The notes under the pieces are model-generated. The model was not told the origin of the DNA. It saw only the letters and a list, made by a program, of their open reading frames with translations, and ran no database searches. The position numbers and the translations under genes are program-made. Shown in pieces: positions 23,516-34,027 of a DNA stretch of 64,000 bases; position 1 is the first letter of the stretch; every line of letters begins with the position of its first letter. Source of the stretch: Oceanobacillus luteolus (GTDB taxonomy: Bacteria > Bacillota > Bacilli > Bacillales > Amphibacillaceae); assembly GCF_023715655.1 (NCBI RefSeq), contig NZ_JAMBON010000008.1, forward strand, positions 1-64,000. Reading direction: 5' to 3'.

Positions 23516-24340
23516 TTATTTTGTGGTCTGCGCTAAGATTCCTTCTTCAATCATTTCATCTAATGTATATTCAATCGTGCGTTCATGTTCTGTTAATTCA
23601 ATTTGCACGAGTTTTTCCAATATGTTTAGTCCAACGACTTTTCCTTTTCCATGTGGAGTCTTAACGGATTCACCAAAGTCTGGCATCTCCCGTTTAGCTT
23701 CTTCATAATGGTCATTTTCATACTTTAAGCAACACATTAATCTTCCACATAATCCTGAGATTTTTGCTGGATTGAGAGAGAGATTTTGATCTTTCGCCAT
23801 TTTAATGGAGACCGGCTCAAAGTCCCCTAAAAACGTTGAACAACAAAGCATTCTACCGCACGGTCCAATACCACCCAGCATTTTTGCTTCATCGCGTACA
23901 CCAATTTGGCGTAACTCAATTCTTGTCTTGAACATAGCTGCAAGATCTTTAACAAGATTTCGGAAATCAATCCGACCATCTGCTGTAAAGTAAAAAATAA
24001 TTTTATTTCTATCAAATGTATATTCAACATCGACTAGATTCATTTCCAAGTCATGTTCTTTCACCTTTACGGAACAAGCTTCCAATGCTTCTTTTGCTTG
24101 TCGCTTATTCTCAACGACAGTTCGTTTATCTTCTTCCGTTGCTACACGGATAACCTTCTTCAAAGGAAGTACAACATCTTCTTCATCGACCTTCTTACTG
24201 GCAATGACAACTTTCCCGAACTCAATACCACGAATTGTTTCTACGATCACATAACTATCAAGTGTGATATCTTCTTCCCCCGGGTCAAAATAATATATTT
24301 TACCCGCTTTTTTAAAGCGGACACCTATAACTTCTATCAT
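23516..24340 (-). CDS. ricT: RicT (YaaT), PSP1-domain protein
   Basis: RicT forms the RicAFT complex, which supports RNase Y processing and phosphorelay activity. The 274-residue PSP1 protein has the cysteine-rich stretch GPCGRMLCCSTF and SGLCGRLMCCLKY, known in the family to bind iron-sulfur clusters. ATG with AGAGGTG upstream, directly after holB (10-base gap). About 200 bases separate it from yabA and hold no recognised gene. Confidence 0.96.
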   Translation of the reverse strand: MIEVIGVRFKKAGKIYYFDPGEEDITLDSYVIVETIRGIEFGKVVIASKKVDEEDVVLPLKKVIRVATEEDKRTVVENKRQAKEALEACSVKVKEHDLEMNLVDVEYTFDRNKIIFYFTADGRIDFRNLVKDLAAMFKTRIELRQIGVRDEAKMLGGIGPCGRMLCCSTFLGDFEPVSIKMAKDQNLSLNPAKISGLCGRLMCCLKYENDHYEEAKREMPDFGESVKTPHGKGKVVGLNILEKLVQIELTEHERTIEYTLDEMIEEGILAQTTK

Positions 24341-24350
24341 TCTAATTTTT

Positions 24351-25340
24351 TCACCTCTTCATTTGCAGTACAAGCTGCTCCATTACTAATGTAGGCTGTA
24401 CATTTTGCGAGAGTTTCCGTTTGGCCTGGATAATTAAATCGAGTAGTTTCGATAAATGGTTTTGCGAAAATCTCATCGAGGTCTTCTCTAGTAATGTATC
24501 ATTTGGTTTGAAAACGGTCATCTTCCCCTCATTACCAATATGGTAGTAAAGAACATCACGTAAAGATAGGAGCAGCAGATCAAGCCCCCGTTCGTGATCT
24601 TTTCTCTCTTTAAAATGCGTAAGCCACTTACTATGGAGATAGAGATAGATATTCTCAGGCCTTGTGGTTAGCATTTCTATTAATTGTAACACTAGCGTTC
24701 TCGCTTCCACAAACCATTCGTCTTCAGAGAGCTGAAACGCATCATCTAAATTATTCGTAAGCGCACTCATCAGGAATGCATCCTGTTCTTTCATCCCTTC
24801 ACTGATCAACTGTTTTTGGAACTGGAGAGGATTAAGTGGTTTTAAGTCTATCACCTGACAACGGGAGCGAATCGTTGGAAGAATCGACCCACTATTTTCA
24901 GTGAGCATCATCGCAGTCGTCTGTTTACTTGGTTCCTCTAAAAATTTAAGGAGGCTGTTTGCCGCGTTTACCGTCATCCTATCAGCATGTTTAATAACAT
25001 AAACCTTCTGATTGGACTCCATACCTGAAAACGCGAATTCCTTTTGCAGGTGCCTCACTTGCTCTTTTGATATAGATAAACCCTCTGGCTCGATCCAATG
25101 GACGTCCGGATGGTTGCCAGATAGGATACGTTTGCAATTATTACATGTGTTGCACGGTTCTATTCCTTGCTTGTTTTCACAAAAAAGACTCATTGCCATT
25201 ACAAGGGCGATCCGTTCTTTTCCCGTGCCTCGTTCACCTTGCAGGAGGTACGCATGAGAAATTCGGCCTTTTTCCAAACTGTTGGTGAGAATAGTCGTTG
25301 CAAGTGGCTGTATTTCTGCAATTTTAGACCAAGTGTTCAT
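24351..25340 (-). CDS. holB: DNA polymerase III subunit delta'
   Basis: The delta' subunit of the clamp loader, which opens DnaN clamps with DnaX and delta. The 329-residue AAA+ protein has GERGTGKE, a zinc module (C followed by CNTCNNC), and the SRC-type IRSRCQV. I chose ATG 25340 (MNTWSKIAEIQP) by family alignment; the upstream GGGA is weak. It lies between yaaR and ricT. The window also encodes the DnaX partner at 31.7 kb. Confidence 0.94.
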   Translation of the reverse strand: MNTWSKIAEIQPLATTILTNSLEKGRISHAYLLQGERGTGKERIALVMAMSLFCENKQGIEPCNTCNNCKRILSGNHPDVHWIEPEGLSISKEQVRHLQKEFAFSGMESNQKVYVIKHADRMTVNAANSLLKFLEEPSKQTTAMMLTENSGSILPTIRSRCQVIDLKPLNPLQFQKQLISEGMKEQDAFLMSALTNNLDDAFQLSEDEWFVEARTLVLQLIEMLTTRPENIYLYLHSKWLTHFKERKDHERGLDLLLLSLRDVLYYHIGNEGKMTVFKPNDTLLEKTSMRFSQNHLSKLLDLIIQAKRKLSQNVQPTLVMEQLVLQMKR

Positions 25341-25405
25341 GAGTATCCGTCCCTTTTCGTCCAACACTAACGCTCAGGCAGCCATGAAACTTATTTGAAA
25401 AGACC

Positions 25406-25439
25406 TGGAAGTTCGACGCGAGAAACACGCCAAACTTCC
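25406..25439. other. Hairpin in yaaR-holB gap
   Basis: Seven-bp arms GGAAGTT/AACTTCC with an inner GCG/CGC pair, no T-run. It sits in a 147-base gap inside an otherwise tight operon; could affect mRNA processing. Confidence 0.4.
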
Positions 25440-25487
25440 CGTCATTCACAGTCCATCTGCTGCTAAATGAGCGTGTGCAATTTGTTG

Positions 25488-25922
25488 TTACGTATATATG
25501 TTAATCAGCAGACCTTTGATTTCACCGATGTGACCAAGTATGTCCACTGTCTTCTTTTCCTGATTCATAACATCTTCCGTTAATTCCAATAACTTCTCGT
25601 CGATTTTCTTTAAAATCGTAAGTTTACGGCTACTTCCATCAAAACCGATGGAATGGCCTTGTTTTAATTGATAACTGTTTGATACAGTTTCTTCTAAAAA
25701 ACCTTTAATCAATCGTTTGAACTTTGTAAGCTCACGTAATGTGCGATAATGTGCAAGTTTTTCACCTTGACTTGCAATATTTTTAACCAATTCTTCAAGC
25801 TCTTGTTGTTTTACCTTTAGAGACTCAGACTGTACGAGTTTTTGGAAGGATTGGGTTTCAGCTGGTGCAGTTCTTGTTACCTTAACTTCTGTCTGAGATT
25901 TAAATTCTTGGCTGATTTTCAT
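25488..25922 (-). CDS. yaaR: YaaR family protein (DUF327)
   Basis: A 144-residue all-helical DUF327 protein of unknown function, conserved between darA and holB in Bacilli. It is rich in charged residues, with a predicted coiled coil at about 30-60 and no membrane segment. GGAG is seen upstream of the ATG. Confidence 0.9.
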   Translation of the reverse strand: MKISQEFKSQTEVKVTRTAPAETQSFQKLVQSESLKVKQQELEELVKNIASQGEKLAHYRTLRELTKFKRLIKGFLEETVSNSYQLKQGHSIGFDGSSRKLTILKKIDEKLLELTEDVMNQEKKTVDILGHIGEIKGLLINIYT

Positions 25923-25958
25923 TCATGCTCCGCTCCTTCCAAGTTCACTTTTTCCTTT

Positions 25959-26928
<970 letters not shown>

Positions 26929-26932
<4 letters not shown>

Positions 26933-28362
26933 GTCTGCTTCTCCTTCAGGTTGCTCATAAATATACGTATGCCTTCTTCCCGTTGCTGGATTCTCACCCC
27001 TTGCTCGATAAGCTGGTTGATTGCTGTATAGTGCTCCAGTGTAACGATTTCTCCTTTTGAAATTAGAGGAATCCCCGGTGGATACGGAATCACCGGCTCT
27101 GCTGCAATTTCACCTATTGCTTTTTCAAAAGGGATAAGCTTTTGTTTCAATCCTTCCATTTCCCGGTAAGTTAAGGCTAATTCTTGAATCGTACTGGTAA
27201 AATAGTTTACCACTTCTATTGTAGCATGATTTCCATTGTTTTTTAATGCTTCCATCACGTATTTCAGGACTTTTTTCAGACGTGCCCATTCACTGAAAGG
27301 GCCTAAACCAAAAATAAAAAGTATTTGCCTGTCTGTAGTCAGTTCCGGATAAATTCCTTGTTCCTCAAACAACCTCGCAGCCTCTTTTGCAGTATACCCA
27401 TCTTTAAGCTGAATCGTTAATTTTAACGGATCGTCAGATGGAATGATGTCCCAGTGACTGACTGCCTCCCGAAATAATGCTTTTATTTTGTCGATGTCTT
27501 CTAAGATTTGTTGGATCCTCTCCTGATTCAGCATGGCGAGATAATATCTTGCAATATCTAAAGAAGCCATTAATGGATATGACGGGCTGCTCGATTGCAG
27601 CATCTGCAATCGATATGCCAGACTTTCCTTTGTGATCAGCTTCGATTTTATATGTAGATAAGAAGCCATCGTCATTGCCGGAGCCGTCTTATGAGCCGAA
27701 TGGACGACGACATCCGCGCCAAGCTCGAGGGCAGACTTTGGAAATGGTTCCCCTAAAGCGAAATGCACTCCATGGGCCTCATCTACAAGAACGGGAATAT
27801 TCCGGTCATGAGCGAGCTCAATCATCGTTTTGATATCATAAGTACGACCAAAATAGTCGGGATAAGTAAGGATGACAGCTTTAGCATCCGGATGTTCATC
27901 TAGTGCTTTTTCAAGTGTATTAATCGCTGGACTGGTGAATCTCTCCACTTTGGCATCATACTCCGGTGCAAGAAAGACCGGTCTCACACCAGCAAGTTCC
28001 AGCCCATTCAAAATCGACTTATGACTATTTCGCTGAACAATCACTTTATCATTTTGCTTACACGCAGCAAGAATCATCGCTAAATTTCCTACCGTGCTGC
28101 CATTGATAAGGAAGAAGGTATGATCAGATTGGAAAAACGCACTCGCCAATTTTTCTGCTTCAGCAATTGCTCCATGGGGAGCGTGAAGGTCGTCTAAGCC
28201 CGGTAGTTCGGTCATATCCAGTTTTAAAATATGTTCATAATATGACTTCGCCTGCTCCGGAAAGATAACCCCACTTTTATGGCCAGGAACGTGAAATGAT
28301 ATGGATTTGGTAGTGGAAAATTCTTCTAGCATTTGTAAAATCGGGATGTTTTTCTGGTTCAT
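26929..28362 (-). CDS. yaaO: PLP-dependent Orn/Lys/Arg decarboxylase family (YaaO)
   Basis: A 477-residue fold-type I PLP enzyme of the Orn/Lys/Arg decarboxylase class; substrate not assignable from sequence. It shows FHVPGHKSG, the DEAH motif (194-197) and the PLP lysine Lys225 in [10 protein letters not shown], plus the smaller C-terminal domain. GGAGGAG precedes the ATG. It overlaps tmk by 4 bases. In B. subtilis xpaC and yaaN lie upstream; here a NERD gene and a 21-bp repeat array occupy that place. Confidence 0.93.
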
Positions 28363-28465
28363 TGGAGACTCCTCCGTGATTTTTGGTTATATTCTTTAGT
28401 TTATCATAGAGTGAGCAGGGCTGGGGGTGCGAGGAACTGGCTTGATACAGCGGATATTTGTGAAT

Positions 28466-28570
28466 TTGAGCATTATTATCTTGGACTTGAGCATCTTTAC
28501 TGCCAACTTGAGCATTTTTAATGGGTATTTGAGCATTTATCTGGTAGATTTGAGCATTTACCTATACATC
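28466..28570. repeat. Five-copy 21-bp-period repeat array
   Basis: The core TTGAGCAT recurs at 28466, 28487, 28508, 28529 and 28550, exactly 21 bases apart, with degenerate 13-base fillers. Since 21 is seven codons, the array keeps one reading frame: the plus frame from GTG 28460 to TAA 28573 reads a heptad repeat LSIxxxx. The minus frame is continuous with the NERD gene beyond its TAG and reads NAQIxxx. I do not claim either is translated. Confidence 0.9.
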
Positions 28571-29557
28571 TAATAGATGATAAGGTTCGAGCTTATATTC
28601 TAGTCCGCTTTTTATCCCATAGCTTTCTAACTTCTCCTTTTGTAATAATTGCTTAACAATATGTCTAGACTCCAACTGCAAAAACTCCCTCGCTTCTCGA
28701 TTTTTTATATATTCATTAACTAATAGTCCGTATTCCGCCAATGCACGTCTATGAGCTTTTTTCGAGGCTGCTCTACAATAATAACAAAGCCATTTTCCTC
28801 CTTTACGTATCATTGGTGCTTGCAAGCATTCTGGACAGATAACTCCTTTTATTAATTCCCCATAAGAAATTTTGTATTTGGCCAGAAGATCTTCTTTTTT
28901 CTCGGAGTGTGCAGCAAGTAACCGATTGGAAATCTCCATCAATTGGTCTCCTGATAGTCTTGCTACCGGGTACATCTTTTCAAATTCCTCAATTTTATCA
29001 AGCAGCTTATCCTTATGCATAACCATTTTGGGCAATTCATTATTATTGGTATGATTTTTAAGGATGGTATTCGAGTTACTATAGACTACAATTTTTTCAA
29101 TTGGAAGGGAGGGGAAATCGTACTGCCTTAGCCAGCGGAGTAGTCGGAGGTGTTGCAGTTTCACTTGAAATACCGGATTGGTAAATGCTTGTTCTTTATC
29201 AACTTCTTTTCGTATTACCTGTCCCATTTCATCAAATATGACATGGTCACGAATATTTTTTACTTCTATGATCAGTAAGTATTGTGCAGACAATAGTAGA
29301 ATATCAATTTGGAAATAACTCTGATTATCCTTGATGCGTAGATATTGGAAGATAAGATATTTTTCTGGAGGAAGGAAGTTCAGCATATACTGAAGGTCTT
29401 GTTCTCCGTTATATCCGGCGCGTATGTTTCTTGCTCTTGAATCAATGATTTCTTTTTGAGGATGATTTTGAGGAACCCTTTCGTTTAAAGCTTCATGCTG
29501 CAGCAATTCGATCGGAGGTTTAAGAGGTTTAATAATCAACGATACACTACCTTTCAT
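28562..29557 (-). CDS. NERD-domain protein with C-terminal zinc ribbon
   Basis: A 331-residue predicted nuclease-related protein. The NERD region (about 45-165) carries a PD-(D/E)xK-like triad: Asp85 in FQIDIL, and Glu98 and Lys100 in IIEVKN. A zinc ribbon follows at 241-261 (CPEC...CYYC). No signal peptide or membrane segment is seen. The ribosome site is weak. It replaces xpaC/yaaN between csfB and yaaO compared with B. subtilis. Function unknown; DNA processing or phage-related roles have been proposed for NERD proteins, but nothing here proves it. Confidence 0.85.
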   Translation of the reverse strand: MKGSVSLIIKPLKPPIELLQHEALNERVPQNHPQKEIIDSRARNIRAGYNGEQDLQYMLNFLPPEKYLIFQYLRIKDNQSYFQIDILLLSAQYLLIIEVKNIRDHVIFDEMGQVIRKEVDKEQAFTNPVFQVKLQHLRLLRWLRQYDFPSLPIEKIVVYSNSNTILKNHTNNNELPKMVMHKDKLLDKIEEFEKMYPVARLSGDQLMEISNRLLAAHSEKKEDLLAKYKISYGELIKGVICPECLQAPMIRKGGKWLCYYCRAASKKAHRRALAEYGLLVNEYIKNREAREFLQLESRHIVKQLLQKEKLESYGIKSGLEYKLEPYHLLDV

Positions 29558-29656
29558 ATGTATTTTCTCGTTGCTTTATATTCGGCAAAAGGGAGAAAAA
29601 TCCTGCATGAAGGGCGAGTTTAATTTCTACGACAATAACCTACATTACAAAAACAA

Positions 29657-29687
29657 ATAAAAAAGCCTTTGCTTTATACAAAGACTC
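29657..29687 (-). terminator. Terminator of csfB
   Basis: Minus strand: AGTCTTTG/CAAAGGCT stem with one G-U, then TTTTTTA. Its upstream end touches the csfB stop codon. Confidence 0.75.
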
Positions 29688-29875
29688 TAGGAAAATAGTT
29701 GCTGTTGATTTACACTTTTTAATTTCTGTACATAGTAGCGGTATTTTTCTTCACGTGGTTCAGTATGGATGATATTATACTCACACTCTTGGCAAATAAA
29801 CATTGTATAAAGATGAATACCATGTTGCTTTTCTTCTTCACATATACCACAAGTTTTAAGCGTCTTTGCTTCCAT
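29687..29875 (-). CDS. csfB: Anti-sigma factor CsfB (Gin)
   Basis: Gin inhibits SigG (and SigE) to prevent premature late forespore gene expression. The 62-residue product has a zinc-finger-like CGIC...CQEC pattern and the family core GIHLYTMFICQECE. I chose ATG 29875 behind GGAGGTG; upstream in-frame codons are not conserved. A strong SigF-type promoter match is present upstream. Confidence 0.94.
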   Translation of the reverse strand: MEAKTLKTCGICEEEKQHGIHLYTMFICQECEYNIIHTEPREEKYRYYVQKLKSVNQQQLFS

Positions 29876-29895
29876 TTCCCCACCTCCATGAAAGT

Positions 29896-29924
29896 AGTAT
29901 CTCCTAATCTTATGATTTCTATTC
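29896..29924 (-). promoter_or_regulatory. SigF-type promoter of csfB
   Basis: Minus strand: GAATA, 15-base spacer, GGAGATACT, fully fitting GGnnAnAnT. csfB is a known SigF gene. Confidence 0.75.
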
Positions 29925-29953
29925 ATGGAATGTGAATATTACTATTTTCATAA

Positions 29954-29989
29954 TAAAAAAATGGACCGTATACGTAGGGTCCAATTTTT
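29954..29989. terminator. Terminator of bofA
   Basis: TGGACC/GGTCCA stem with a 10-base loop flanked by an A-run and a T-run, so it can act in both directions; lies past the bofA stop. Confidence 0.7.
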
Positions 29990-30035
29990 GATCTCATGTT
30001 GAAACGGATATATACCCTGACATTCTGGCCCATTT

Positions 30036-30299
30036 TTATAATATGAAAATATGGATTGCGACCAAGGATGCCACTCCGAAAAGGCCCAATATCCCGGAAA
30101 CAAGTGCAGTGAAGAGGTTAATCGGGACATGAATACCAAAATTGGCTCCGAAAACGTTGACGAAAAATAATAATAATACCCCGATTACTAGTTTCACAGA
30201 CCCTTGTCCGAGCAGTTTCATTGGTTTCACCGGTGCTCCAACGGTAAGCAACAAAATAATAATGGAAATCATTATGATAATTACCATGGTTGAGCTCAT
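30036..30299 (-). CDS. bofA: Inhibitor of pro-SigK processing BofA
   Basis: BofA holds the SpoIVFB protease inactive in the outer forespore membrane until engulfment is signalled. The 87-residue protein equals the B. subtilis length, with two membrane segments (about 5-22 and 36-54) and the conserved NxFGxNFGIHVPINL region followed by a hydrophobic end. AGGAGG precedes the ATG. It lies between yaaL and csfB; no rRNA operon is present here, unlike in B. subtilis. Confidence 0.95.
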   Translation of the reverse strand: MSSTMVIIIMISIIILLLTVGAPVKPMKLLGQGSVKLVIGVLLLFFVNVFGANFGIHVPINLFTALVSGILGLFGVASLVAIHIFIL

Positions 30300-30387
30300 T
30301 CTTTAACAATCCTCCTACAACTCAAGTCTAACGAGAACAAGATTCGAACTCCATGTCCCACTTAGTCTATGTATATGTATTTACATA

Positions 30388-30419
30388 TAAAAAAAGACTA
30401 AGGTTCAACTTAGTCTTTT
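30388..30419 (-). terminator. Terminator of recR-yaaL
   Basis: Minus strand: AAAGACTAAG/CTTAGTCTTT perfect stem with a 6-base loop and a long T-run, overlapping the yaaL stop codon. Confidence 0.85.
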
Positions 30420-30630
30420 AAATATCCAATGCATTAACATTTCGGCGTCGCGCTTCCCGGAGCAAATATAAATATTTGGCCTCAGCAAGTTTCTCGGCAG
30501 CTCTGCTTTCAAGGGTGCGTTCAATACTCCTTGAGCCTAATTCGCGAATTTGTTTCCACTCTTTTTCTACTACAAATATCGCATGCAGCAGCTCCGCATC
30601 CACCTGTTTTTTATTCAATTTCCTTGCCAT
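30418..30630 (-). CDS. yaaL: YaaL family protein (DUF2508)
   Basis: A 70-residue charged helical protein of unknown function, conserved downstream of recR in Bacilli. The C-terminal AEAKYLYLLREARRRN matches the family signature. I chose ATG 30630; GGTGAAG just upstream is a weak site, and the gene is only 16 bases after recR, so translation is probably coupled. Confidence 0.88.
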   Translation of the reverse strand: MARKLNKKQVDAELLHAIFVVEKEWKQIRELGSRSIERTLESRAAEKLAEAKYLYLLREARRRNVNALDI

Positions 30631-30646
30631 GTTCTTCACCCGAATT

Positions 30647-31243
30647 CTATAATTCTCTTCTTCCCTCTAACGCTCTTGATAGTGTCACTTCATCCGCATA
30701 TTCTAAGTCACCGCCAACCGGTAGTCCGTGGGCGATTCTAGTTGTGCGGATACCAGATGGTTTCACAAGTCGAGAAATATACATCGCTGTTGCTTCCCCT
30801 TCAATATTGGCATTGGTCGCAAGGATGATTTCTTTTACTTCTTCATCCTTCAGGCGATTAAGTAAATCAGGGACATTGATATCTTCTGGGCCAATTCCAT
30901 CCATCGGTGAAATCGCACCATGAAGAACATGGTATTTACCATTAAATTCTTTCATTTTTTCCATAGCGATAACGTCTTTCGGATCCTCGACTACACAAAT
31001 AATCGATTCATCCCGATGCGGATCGGAACAAACTGCACAAACTTCCTTATCCGTAATGTGGCCACAGATCGAGCAATGAGTAAGCTCTCTCTTCGCATTG
31101 ACCAACGCGTTTGCAAAGTTCAAGACATCATCGTCCTTCATATTCAAAACGTAAAAGGCCAGACGAACAGCGGTTTTGGGACCGATTCCTGGCAATTTCA
31201 TAAAGCTATCAATAAGCTTTGAAATCGGTTCTGGGTAATACAT
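30647..31243 (-). CDS. recR: Recombination protein RecR
   Basis: RecR acts with RecO (and RecF) to load RecA at gaps. The 198-residue protein has an HhH motif ([16 protein letters not shown]), a C4 zinc finger ([16 protein letters not shown]), and a TOPRIM domain ([15 protein letters not shown]), in that order. It is downstream of dnaX-yaaK, with a hairpin in the yaaK-recR gap. Confidence 0.97.
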
Positions 31244-31267
31244 GAACTTTTCCTCCTAAACAATAAG

Positions 31268-31302
31268 GGAAAAAAGCACCTGCTAAAAACAGGTACTTTT
31301 TC
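31268..31302 (-). terminator. Intercistronic terminator-like hairpin, yaaK-recR
   Basis: Minus strand: GTACCTG/CAGGTGC stem with one T-G pair, extended by A-T pairs, followed by TTTTTT. Because recR normally is cotranscribed with dnaX, partial termination is likely. Confidence 0.65.
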
Positions 31303-31319
31303 AATCCATTAGAATGTGT

Positions 31320-31634
31320 TTAAAACATTCCTGGCATATTTAAGCCTTTAGTAAATTGTCCCATCGTTTCATTTGATTTTTCGTCAACCTGATTTAAAAC
31401 ATCGTTTGTTGCAGCAATGATCAAATCTTGCAGCATTTCGATATCATCTGGATCGACAACTTCTTCTTTAATCTGAACGTCTGTGATCTCTTTTTTACCG
31501 TTGGCAATCACAGTTACCATACCGCCACCAGCAGAAGCTTCAAATGTCATCTCATGAAGTTCTTCTTGTGCCTTCATCATTTTCTTTTGCATTTTTTGCA
31601 TTTGTTTCATCATATTGTTCATATTTCCTCTCAT
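31320..31634 (-). CDS. yaaK: Nucleoid-associated protein YaaK (YbaB/EbfC family)
   Basis: A small dimeric DNA-binding protein with a tweezer fold. The 104-residue product has a Met/Gln-rich N-terminal helix, the core [18 protein letters not shown] and the ending [13 protein letters not shown]. It lies directly after dnaX, the conserved arrangement across bacteria. Confidence 0.95.
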
Positions 31635-31680
31635 GGAAATACCTCCCTCAAATTTGAAATGGTTATTTTAATAAGAGCAC

Positions 31681-33378
31681 TTACTCTTGAATTTCCAATA
31701 GGTCATCGCCCACGAGCTTCCTTGCCTCTTCAATGAGCGGATCACTCTTTTTTTCTTTTTCGTCTTCCTTCTCAACTGGCTTATCCTGAGAATCGATGAA
31801 CGATTGTCTCAAATCCAGCCAATTCGCATCTGGAAGTGGGATAATTCGCAATTGCTTACCTAAAACACTTGCGAGTACGGATTCAACAAGCTCCCGATTA
31901 TCTAAGAAAAGGGAACAATGAATTTCATATTTAAACGCAACGACAAGAGACTCTGGAGATGCAGCGACCGGTTTACTATCCTGAATCGTCGCATGTGCAG
32001 GGGCATTCGTGCTTTTGAGCCGTTCTAAGAAGCTCGCCCAGTTGCCCTGAACATTTCTTAATTCCTGTTTTTCTGCTTCTCTCAGCACACCATATATCTG
32101 TTCAGTCGGAACTTTGAAACTGCTCTTTGCGCCACGGGATTGTGGACGTCTTTGTTCCCGTTGTGGTGTTGGTTGACTAGCTGCGGCTGGTGCCTGTTCC
32201 TTGAAGCGGGTAAGCTCTTTCTCCAATTGAGCCAACTTATCGGTTAAACGCATAACCTCGTCACTTGCTACTGCATTCTGACTACCAGCATTGTTAGGGC
32301 CATTTGTAATCGTAAGTATAGCAATTTCAATATATACTTTCGGACTGTTACTCCATTTGATTTCCTGTTGGCATATGTTCAGACGGGTGATTGCTTCCTG
32401 AATCCAATTGACTGTAACCTCTTCTGCCAGCCCGCGAAAAGCATCGTCTACCCGTGCACGTTCAAGCATTCCTTCTAAAGTTGGATTACTCTTAAATAGT
32501 AATAGGTCACGCAAGTAATAGATAAGGTCATATACAAAGCGCCCGGGGTCTTTTCCTTCTTGAATGATCGTATCCAACAGCTTGATCGCATGCTGGACAT
32601 CACGGTCAAACATCGCCTTTGTGATTTCGGTTAAAATTCCTTGAGATACACCGCCTGTTACGGCAAGCACATCTTCTAACGTCACCTCATCACTGCTGTA
32701 TGAAATGGCCTGATCCAAGATACTTAAAGCATCACGCATTCCACCTTCTGCCGTCCGCGCGATTGCATCCAGCGCTTCCTCCGTAACCTTCTGTCCATCT
32801 GTCTGAACGATTGTTTTCATACGTCCTACAATGGCTTCATTGGATATCGGCTTAAAGTCAAATCGCTGACACCGGGAAATGATTGTCAGTGGAATTTTAT
32901 GTGGTTCTGTCGTAGCTAAAATAAACACGACATGTTTTGGTGGCTCCTCTAATGTTTTTAACAAGGCGTTAAACGCATTAACAGAGATCATGTGGACCTC
33001 ATCGATAATATAGACTTTATAAGGAACAACGCTCGGTGCATATTTTACTTTATCACGGATTTCACGAATATCATCGACACTCGTGTTCGAAGCTGCGTCA
33101 ATCTCAATAATATCCGAAATGGAACCATCCTGGATTCCTAGGCAGGCAGCACATTCATTACATGGCTCTTCCACCGGATTTCTTTCACAGTTGATGGTTT
33201 TTGCAAAGATCTTCGCCGCACTCGTTTTCCCTGTTCCACGTGGACCAGTGAATAAATAAGCATGCGAAAATTTCTCATGCAAAATCGCATTCTTCAATGT
33301 CCTTGTAATATGTTGTTGTCCAACGACGTCCTCGAAGGTTCTTGGACGCCAAACACGATATAAAGCTTGATAGCTCAT
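31681..33378 (-). CDS. dnaX: DNA polymerase III subunits gamma/tau
   Basis: ATPase of the clamp loader. The 565-residue protein has the P-loop TGPRGTGKTSAA near 45, a zinc module CNECAAC, a DEVHMIS Walker B and SRCQRF sensor region, and a C-terminal tau-like extension. AGAGGAG precedes the ATG. It is the first gene of dnaX-yaaK-recR-yaaL. In B. subtilis the SRP RNA gene lies directly upstream; here about 14 kb of accessory DNA intervenes. Confidence 0.97.
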   Translation of the reverse strand: MSYQALYRVWRPRTFEDVVGQQHITRTLKNAILHEKFSHAYLFTGPRGTGKTSAAKIFAKTINCERNPVEEPCNECAACLGIQDGSISDIIEIDAASNTSVDDIREIRDKVKYAPSVVPYKVYIIDEVHMISVNAFNALLKTLEEPPKHVVFILATTEPHKIPLTIISRCQRFDFKPISNEAIVGRMKTIVQTDGQKVTEEALDAIARTAEGGMRDALSILDQAISYSSDEVTLEDVLAVTGGVSQGILTEITKAMFDRDVQHAIKLLDTIIQEGKDPGRFVYDLIYYLRDLLLFKSNPTLEGMLERARVDDAFRGLAEEVTVNWIQEAITRLNICQQEIKWSNSPKVYIEIAILTITNGPNNAGSQNAVASDEVMRLTDKLAQLEKELTRFKEQAPAAASQPTPQREQRRPQSRGAKSSFKVPTEQIYGVLREAEKQELRNVQGNWASFLERLKSTNAPAHATIQDSKPVAASPESLVVAFKYEIHCSLFLDNRELVESVLASVLGKQLRIIPLPDANWLDLRQSFIDSQDKPVEKEDEKEKKSDPLIEEARKLVGDDLLEIQE

Positions 33379-33409
33379 GATATAGATTCTCCTCTACAGT
33401 CTATTTCTA

Positions 33410-33439
33410 ATTATACCCGATATGAGGGGTGAATGTGAA
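33410..33439 (-). promoter_or_regulatory. Candidate SigA promoter of dnaX
   Basis: Minus strand: TTCACA, 18-base spacer, TATAAT, about 30 bases upstream of dnaX. Confidence 0.5.
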
Positions 33440-33618
33440 CCGATGAAGGTAAACATTTGCGAAAATGTAATTTGGAAATATTGTTACAGACTATTTATTT
33501 ACCGCTGCGTTTGATGTAGACTGAACTTATAGAAATAATTGAAAAATATGGGATTTTAAGTGCTGGGATTTTTTTTTGGTTACATCTTGGAAAACATTTA
33601 CTTATAGGAGGGTTTAAC

Positions 33619-33834
33619 ATGGCTAAAGGATTAAAAATCATGTTTTACTGGTCATTTGTTTTCCCTATTTTAGTTACCTTTTTCAGAATCTCCTTCGACG
33701 TATTGTTAGGTAACGAAATCGTATGGATGTCACATATCGCCTTTTTCTTAGCAACTATTTTTGCCGGGTTGATATTTGGCGGGCCATTAAATTTCCTTAT
33801 TTTTAAGTATTACGCTAAAAAAAGAGTAAGTTAG
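33619..33834 (+). CDS. Small membrane protein, two predicted helices
   Basis: I do not recognise this 71-residue protein. It has two hydrophobic segments (about 8-27 and 38-62) and a short basic C-terminal tail (KYYAKKRVS). A strong ATAGGAGG site precedes the ATG. It is the first plus-strand gene of the accessory block and lies 10 bases before the next small membrane protein, so they are probably cotranscribed. Confidence 0.7.
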   Translation: MAKGLKIMFYWSFVFPILVTFFRISFDVLLGNEIVWMSHIAFFLATIFAGLIFGGPLNFLIFKYYAKKRVS

Positions 33835-33844
33835 GAGGATAACG

Positions 33845-34027
33845 GTGGAAGTGATATTTATGTTTGCAGCGGCAATTGTTGTGGTCTTCGTTGCTGTGAT
33901 TGGAATCATTGGCGGTTTATCACAAAGATTTACAAAACCCACAGCCGAACTAAAAGAGCGAGTCACCTTATTAGAGACAAGATTACAGGAGTTGGAGGAA
34001 AAAATAAACGATAATAACCAACTATAA
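33845..34027 (+). CDS. Small single-pass membrane protein with coiled coil
   Basis: A 60-residue protein: one N-terminal membrane helix (about 4-25) and a cytoplasmic coiled coil (LKERVTLLETRLQELEEKI). The start is GTG, preceded by TTAGGAGG. Its topology resembles that of the next gene; both look like small membrane-anchored coiled-coil proteins. Function unknown. Confidence 0.65.
   Translation: MEVIFMFAAAIVVVFVAVIGIIGGLSQRFTKPTAELKERVTLLETRLQELEEKINDNNQL

Follow-up and report, generated by a model that had tools for sequence, protein, structure and literature searches.

A 21-bp direct-repeat array beside a NERD-family gene of Oceanobacillus luteolus and its proposed recognition by the encoded protein

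Results

The NERD locus and its array

The window (the whole stretch of 64,000 nucleotides that was analysed) carries a gene for a NERD-family protein and, 4 bp from the stop codon of this gene (TAG, 28562-28564), an array of five short units. The features of the locus are listed below; the csfB-like and yaaO-like names, given from the sequence, are presumptive.

26929-28362, minus strand: yaaO-like PLP decarboxylase gene, right flank of the insertion
28366-29654: segment with the NERD gene and array, lacking a counterpart in the nearest relative (G023) by blastn, in which the flanks align
28466-28557, minus strand (sense of the NERD gene): array of 5 units with a 21-bp period and variable filler
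28562-29557, minus strand: NERD-family gene, 331 aa (ORF; Pfam NERD PF08378)
28589-28756, minus strand: predicted winged helix, residues 268-323, the proposed core-reading domain (AlphaFold2, covariation)
28775-28837, minus strand: predicted zinc ribbon, C241, C244, C258 and C261 (alignment)
29078-29419, minus strand: NERD domain, PD-(D/E)XK-type nuclease fold (Pfam, alignment, AlphaFold2, structure comparison)
29662-29688, minus strand: predicted intrinsic terminator of the upstream csfB-like gene (hairpin scan)
29687-29926, minus strand: csfB-like gene, left flank of the insertion

The core of the array is ATGCTCAA in the sense of the NERD gene and TTGAGCAT on the plus strand, where it begins at 28466, 28487, 28508, 28529 and 28550 with a spacing of exactly 21 bp (TRF score of 73), as the initial annotation had described. 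The same annotation held that a constant core with variable filler and a fixed period exceeds chance, and this was confirmed using 60 first-order Markov simulations of 64 kb (periods of 15-30, any 8-mer), in which the longest exact-period chain had two members versus five in the window array; chance is thus excluded and the array is real. The annotated array end of 28573 is instead the end of a plus-strand ORF (GTG start, 28427-28573, 48 aa), the last core ending at 28557. This frame is open, as had been stated, but since a 21-bp unit repeated without a stop in a given frame keeps that frame open trivially, its openness is no evidence for coding.

Apart from the window array, the window genome has the exact two-unit pattern in a single array (C125:8499-8548); allowing a looser core, this second array comprises five units at spacings of 21, 21, 20 and 21 bp (C125:8499-8591). 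The earlier expectation of similar phase-conserved arrays elsewhere in the genome was therefore correct, whereas the suggested coding on both strands was not, as the 20-bp spacing among the 21-bp spacings of this second array breaks the frame. It sits behind another gene, presumably encoding a VOC-like protein, with ATGCTCA reading in the direction of that preceding gene, as is also the case in the window. The looser search gave one isolated pair in addition, and the genome has two arrays only. Among 28 genomes of the genus, two-unit matches to ATGCKCA numbered nine in the window genome (G000), eight of them inside its two arrays; three other genomes had a single match each.

The protein matches Pfam NERD (PF08378) over residues 47-160 with an E-value of 7.2e-18 and 65.6 bits, against a gathering cut-off of 22.1. 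Residues E52, D85, E98 and K100 of the NERD domain, the presumed catalytic residues of this putative nuclease, are invariant in 62/62 aligned members, as are the four cysteines of the predicted zinc ribbon. An AlphaFold2 model calculated with an alignment of 61 relatives (61 of the 73 uninterrupted named ones) displays a winged helix with a mean pLDDT of 95.9, encompassing a recognition helix (residues 298-307) and a wing between strands 311-313 and 320-322; residues 302 and 303 lie in the recognition helix and residue 316 in the wing. In structure comparison, the NERD-domain model resembled PD-(D/E)XK nucleases with Z up to 8.8, and the winged helix gave Z of about 6-7 to ArsR/MarR-type and Z-alpha domains, a middling score for a common fold, matches at Z below 8 being possibly common arrangements only. 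Foldseek returned nothing at E 0.001, the best match (E 0.002) being an R2 retrotransposon protein, and a sequence search of solved structures gave no convincing relative of the protein. At E 1e-40, 3 of 249 genomes across the phylum matched the NERD protein: the window's own, one of the same order (G096; two loci, one with arrays) and one of the same class (G613; two loci, no array found). A plasmid or phage origin was rejected: the window array DNA gave no match in plasmids, the protein gave one partial match among 72,556 plasmid records and none in the phages searched, and none of 27 viral-contig stretches was confirmed.

Linkage of arrays to NERD genes in related genomes

The window NERD protein had a match in 20 of the 28 genus genomes, with 30 loci returned. 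Arrays, defined as at least three identical 7-mers of any letters at 19-22 bp, a definition that misses degenerate arrays, were detected in 21 of the 30 loci (four of these with three units only) versus none among 300 dinucleotide-shuffled sequences; of 20 control regions taken from this genus, each of 20 kb, 4 contained arrays (8 arrays in 400 kb). A search of related genomes had been proposed in the initial annotation, and arrays are present in relatives. Those of the genus lay mostly within a few hundred bases of the NERD gene. Their cores vary between loci and include GTTCACA, GCCGATA, CGCGGAA, GCGCCTATAAAA, GGTTGATAG and others. In five loci (L053, L055, L060, L072 and L075), arrays of a single core flank the gene and share one orientation; another locus (L062) has different cores on its two sides.

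A profile search with one genome per species yielded 294 relatives, the best 80 of which were kept and include Oceanobacillus, Virgibacillus, Lentibacillus, Fictibacillus, Metabacillus, Cytobacillus, Peribacillus and Rossellomorea. Of these named Bacillaceae loci, the best 80 of 294, 60 have an array no more than 300 bp from the NERD gene (upstream only in 40, downstream only in 10, on both sides in 10), and the detector gave none in the other 20; the window array is of the downstream-only kind. Array density fell with distance from the gene, from 1.46 per kb inside 300 bp through 0.16 per kb between 300 and 1000 bp to 0.016-0.032 per kb at more than 1 kb. The window array therefore belongs to the adjoining NERD gene. 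Its abutment on this gene had been recognised from the outset and stands; its reading as a continued frame is given up in favour of a gene with its own probable cognate sites. Counting the three commonest spacings of each of the 70 gene-adjacent arrays, 21 bp occurred 143 times, 20 bp 106 times, 22 bp 7 times and 19 bp 6 times. Spacings are mixed in 37 of the 70 arrays, mainly 20/21 bp, which argues against the readthrough of the NERD stop codon that had been envisaged; a spacing of 20/21 bp corresponds to two helical turns, not to a reading frame.

The NERD gene is interrupted by a stop or frame change in 7 of the 80 loci (L114, L131, L142, L147, L148, L167 and L188), and several interrupted genes still adjoin arrays. 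At a Metabacillus halosaccharovorans locus (L146 4824-5766), four small TGCAAAA arrays at intervals of about 215-430 bp lie upstream of the NERD gene, as if array and spacer had been duplicated as a block.

Core skeleton and covariation with the winged helix

Alignment of the cores by expectation-maximisation, starting from a loose seed pattern of our own, gave a skeleton common to them and variable in its middle, (A/T)T(C/G)G(C/T)N(G/C)A(A/T)A(T/A)A. The window sequence AATGCTCAA fits it. The skeleton is not palindromic, and the units are direct repeats. Covariation with the protein was analysed for 63 of 69 arrays, six (L067, L112, L113, L132, L148 and L153) being dropped for doubtful register. 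Core distance correlated with winged-helix distance (Mantel r 0.345, n 63), and this persisted in a partial Mantel test with NERD-domain distance removed (0.248, p 0.0005, n 63); the NERD domain gave no significant correlation beyond that of the winged helix (0.051, p 0.13, n 63).

In plain counts, which overstate independence as the 63 rows include close relatives, core column 8 is T in 18/18 loci with Asn at wing residue 316 and A in 21/22 with Thr at that position; where the residue is Lys (13 loci), the base is A in 9 and T in 4. In the recognition helix, Lys at residue 303 goes with G at column 2 in 13/16 and Arg with C in 22/32, and Lys at residue 302 with C at column 4 in 21/21. The fair test is that of independent pairs on a tree, which was built from the protein minus the zinc ribbon and winged helix. 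On this tree residue 316 changed 21 times and the base 17 times, and 6/6 independent pairs agree (median p 0.031); residue 316 was the best of 208 protein columns, with a mean net agreement of 5.9 versus at most 3.1. Residues 302 and 303 had only 3 and 2 supported pairs on the tree and were not significant. Of the 20 strongest among 3036 column pairs, 11 fall in the recognition helix and wing, which make up 8.7% of tested positions; strong pairs elsewhere in the protein involve, among others, residues 48, 68 and 249. Such covariation would be expected if the core were read directly and, at the level of sequence, suggests that the winged helix binds it.

Dispersed arrays of matching core

Two-unit matches to individual cores were counted in the 28 genus genomes. 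CGCGGAA was found in G013 (569) and G026 (23) only, both of which have a NERD gene with that core, and the backwards control of this core gave one match each in two other genomes. GCCGATA was found in G024 (239), G022 (25) and G005 (8), each of which has that NERD core, and in addition in G010 (9), G011 (8) and, once each, in G003, G004 and G016. Likewise, GTTCACA matches in G013 (37), G021 (29) and G006 (4), all with that NERD core, were accompanied by matches in G005 (10), G017 (5) and, once each, G011, G020 and G023. One GTTCACA pair in G005 lies about 190 bp from a NERD gene in opposite orientation. The G017 matches were rejected as arrays of their own, as by eye they resemble filler between the units of GCCTATAAAAAG arrays. 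In G011, a complete genus genome with arrays of one core (GCCGATAT, for example at C1:467428-467476), not even the profile search gave a NERD match; its arrays are perhaps orphans left after gene loss.

The converse comparison was made by fetching the NERD regions of seven genomes with known dispersed cores. Three of the seven fit. G175 has 404 three-unit matches, and its NERD gene lies between 49 and 14 units of that repeat; in G141 the NERD gene is followed by nine GCTCATA units; and in G006, CGCTCGA units, a core seen before in a control region on the same contig, flank the NERD gene, at a distance of 36 bp downstream and about 0.75 kb upstream. G082 fits partly (CTCATAA, 2.5 kb from the NERD gene), and G088, G338 and G010 do not. 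Besides these seven, G291 also fits. Arrays of one core are thus found mainly, not only, in genomes whose NERD gene carries that core. In G175, at least four NERD genes with different cores are present, and at one NERD gene a second array with another repeat unit (L339 2773-2930) adjoins the 49-unit array.

Several further matches were set aside. The exact window core in G088 is probably a coincidence of strand, as the other strand fits the skeleton and the main NERD gene has another core; a gene adjoining an array in this genome contains a coding 42-bp tandem repeat (L007 2079-2393). Matches with a 21-bp period in G201 (L025 1484-1762) and G323 (L029 1483-1586) were rejected as arrays because both are coding, the former for a His/Asp-rich stretch and the latter for a Met-rich coiled-coil-like protein.

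Placement and insertion site

Orientation was assessed for 37 arrays (the first loci returned for three cores, plus the two arrays of the window genome) using simple longest-ORF gene calls. Co-directional genes flank 33 of the 37 on the 5' side (p 1e-6) and 21, the chance level, on the 3' side; eight of the 37 adjoin a NERD gene, and without these 26 of 29 are co-directional by our tally. Upstream of NERD genes, a preceding gene within 300 bp is co-directional in 31 of 38 cases. A predicted terminator stands between the preceding stop codon and the array in 26/31 cases versus 46/127 control gene ends, the stretches compared (up to the array, at most 300 bp, versus 120 bp in controls) not being strictly matched. 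The window follows this rule, its NERD gene lying directly behind the csfB-like gene and the predicted terminator at 29662-29688.

No NERD match or array was found at the csfB-yaaO site in any of the 27 other genus genomes, and in 26 of the 27 the distance between the two genes, measured between tblastn alignment ends, is 78-512 bp. The same slot in the nearest relative (G023) is occupied by an unrelated 299-aa gene (L346 3006-3905), which by eye we take to be TraB/GumN-like and which also lies behind the csfB terminator. None of eight window neighbours was common to any of the 80 named loci, and 79 NERD loci have 68 different pairs of neighbours. Six Cytobacillus-type loci with one core have 6 to 17 exact units on the far side of the gene, with flanks that are 85-94% identical. 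Gene and arrays come and go, with horizontal transfer, transposition and loss as alternatives.

Discussion

Proposed explanation and alternatives

The array probably consists of cognate binding sites of the adjoining NERD protein, the gene and its dispersed arrays together forming a two-part genomic element. This proposal draws on computed gene linkage, the match of core to genome with its exceptions, the common skeleton, covariation, the orientation rule and the empty sites. The C-terminal winged helix would read a core of about 12 bp, with the recognition helix reading its variable middle and the wing the A/T step behind, and units of 20/21 bp, or two helical turns, would place several NERD copies side by side on one face of the DNA. 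Besides the arrays at the NERD gene, others of that core are scattered among host genes, where most follow the 3' end, and often the terminator, of a gene running in the same direction. The nuclease-like domain may act on array DNA or its surroundings when these are in a particular state (single-stranded, replicating or transcribed), an action that would expand or spread the arrays, so that the enzyme may also maintain them. Such cutting would have to be restricted, since unchecked cleavage of hundreds of sites would be all but lethal to the cell; a position downstream of terminators would do the host little harm and, as we propose, explain the orientation rule. A wider reading, held tentatively and at slightly less than even confidence, is that of a new class of mobile or self-maintaining element, in which NERD-winged-helix nucleases read, spread and keep phased direct-repeat arrays behind terminators using a readable recognition code (residue 316, Asn-T and Thr-A; residues 302 and 303, the variable box), with several pairs of different core coexisting in one genome.

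The same binding could instead serve the host, with array-bound NERD protein acting as a polar barrier that stops read-through transcription or replication forks, a regulatory and not a selfish role that can be likened to oriented terminator boxes elsewhere. Such barriers would account for the co-directional 5'-side genes and, in unequal stretches, the excess of terminators before arrays, but absence of gene and array at the window site in all 27 other genus genomes, the different neighbours at most loci (68 combinations in 79) and the presence of only two arrays in the window genome make them unlikely. Control of the NERD gene's own promoter through upstream arrays, with all other arrays as by-products, would suit the 50 of 80 loci with an upstream array within 300 bp (40 upstream only). 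We consider it quite improbable, given that only the downstream side carries an array in the window and in nine other loci of that type (10 of 80) and that, in some genomes, dozens or hundreds of arrays with the same core lie elsewhere.

Invariance of the nuclease residues in 62/62 members, together with one member-like match to the NCBIfam defence protein MAD6 that is far under its cut-off (23.5 bits of 460), would fit a defence or self-marking system, in which chromosomal arrays restrain or direct a nuclease and DNA that is without arrays, or interferes with them, is attacked; with 0 families in PADLOC (2023 library, E up to 1) and no recurring partner gene (159 neighbour proteins in 114 clusters, the largest of 5), this is very improbable. 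Repeats acting in 3' untranslated RNA would explain the sense orientation behind genes, yet the arrays often lie behind a predicted terminator (26/31) and would be little transcribed, their covariation partner is a winged helix, and the array has no Rfam family, an RNA family being rejected as the sole match was a sub-threshold snoRNA (20.8 bits of 55, E 0.12); we regard action at the RNA level as highly improbable. Coding heptads with readthrough, or an accidental minisatellite, draw on the two open frames over the array and are scarcely credible: heptads with readthrough are rejected by the mixed 20/21 spacing, the core is kept while the filler is free, simulations exclude chance and one skeleton extends across genera.

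Comparison with known systems

The two-part element proposed above most resembles REP/REPIN sequences and their RAYT (TnpA-REP) enzymes, which are described as having a gene beside its own repeats, dispersed cognate repeats and co-evolution of enzyme and repeat (PMC3116915, PMC8266576). NERD genes are likewise flanked by their own repeats, with others dispersed elsewhere. However, a RAYT is an HuH enzyme acting on palindromic single-stranded hairpins, whereas the NERD element has a PD-(D/E)XK-type NERD domain with a predicted winged helix and its arrays are non-palindromic direct repeats phased at 20/21 bp; no HuH (Y1) transposase was recognised, Pfam giving NERD only and the model resembling PD-(D/E)XK nucleases and winged helices. 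The NERD element thus has the REP/RAYT layout but is unrelated and not a member.

As far as described in the portion consulted, the STAR elements of staphylococci are intergenic direct repeats with a conserved core, a less conserved spacer and locus-specific copy number (PMC3532100), but have a 14-bp core with at least 40 bp between cores, as opposed to units of 20/21 bp, and no partner protein is named in that portion. The TAACTGA repeats of Beggiatoaceae and Cyanobacteria are similarly described as short intergenic direct repeats in sets; they are a single heptamer placed mostly just upstream of start codons and suggested to be sites of a post-transcriptional regulator (PMC4679880). CRISPR-like arrays differ in having longer repeats and unique spacers, against a core of about 8-12 bp in a unit of 20/21 bp here, and no cas-like gene was seen by eye among the ORFs of window positions 24000-34000. 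Group IIC introns prefer places behind intrinsic terminators in a fixed orientation. This placement is shared by the NERD element, and no intron or reverse transcriptase was seen in the NERD-array segment of the window. With winged-helix DNA-binding proteins, the model shares a predicted fold with recognition helix and wing, and covariation suggests specific binding of the core. Protein family, repeat type and probably chemistry differ from those of every system compared; by layout alone, the element is of the REP/RAYT kind. If arrays move, the REP/RAYT way of life would have arisen a second time, from unrelated components.

The proposal would give the NERD protein family a specific, testable partner and would explain dispersed 20/21-bp repeats in many Bacillaceae genomes, while dozens of homologues, each beside its presumed target, would constitute a natural recognition code for a winged helix. 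The NERD domain (PF08378) itself is shared with other NERD-domain proteins, to which the family of the window adds a zinc ribbon, a predicted winged helix and linked arrays. No link between NERD genes and repeats was found in the titles and abstracts of the open-licence papers returned by our searches. A NERD gene of B. methanolicus MGA3 is reported 456 bp downstream of upp (PMC12802215). B. methanolicus PB1 (L178) has a NERD gene with an array upstream.
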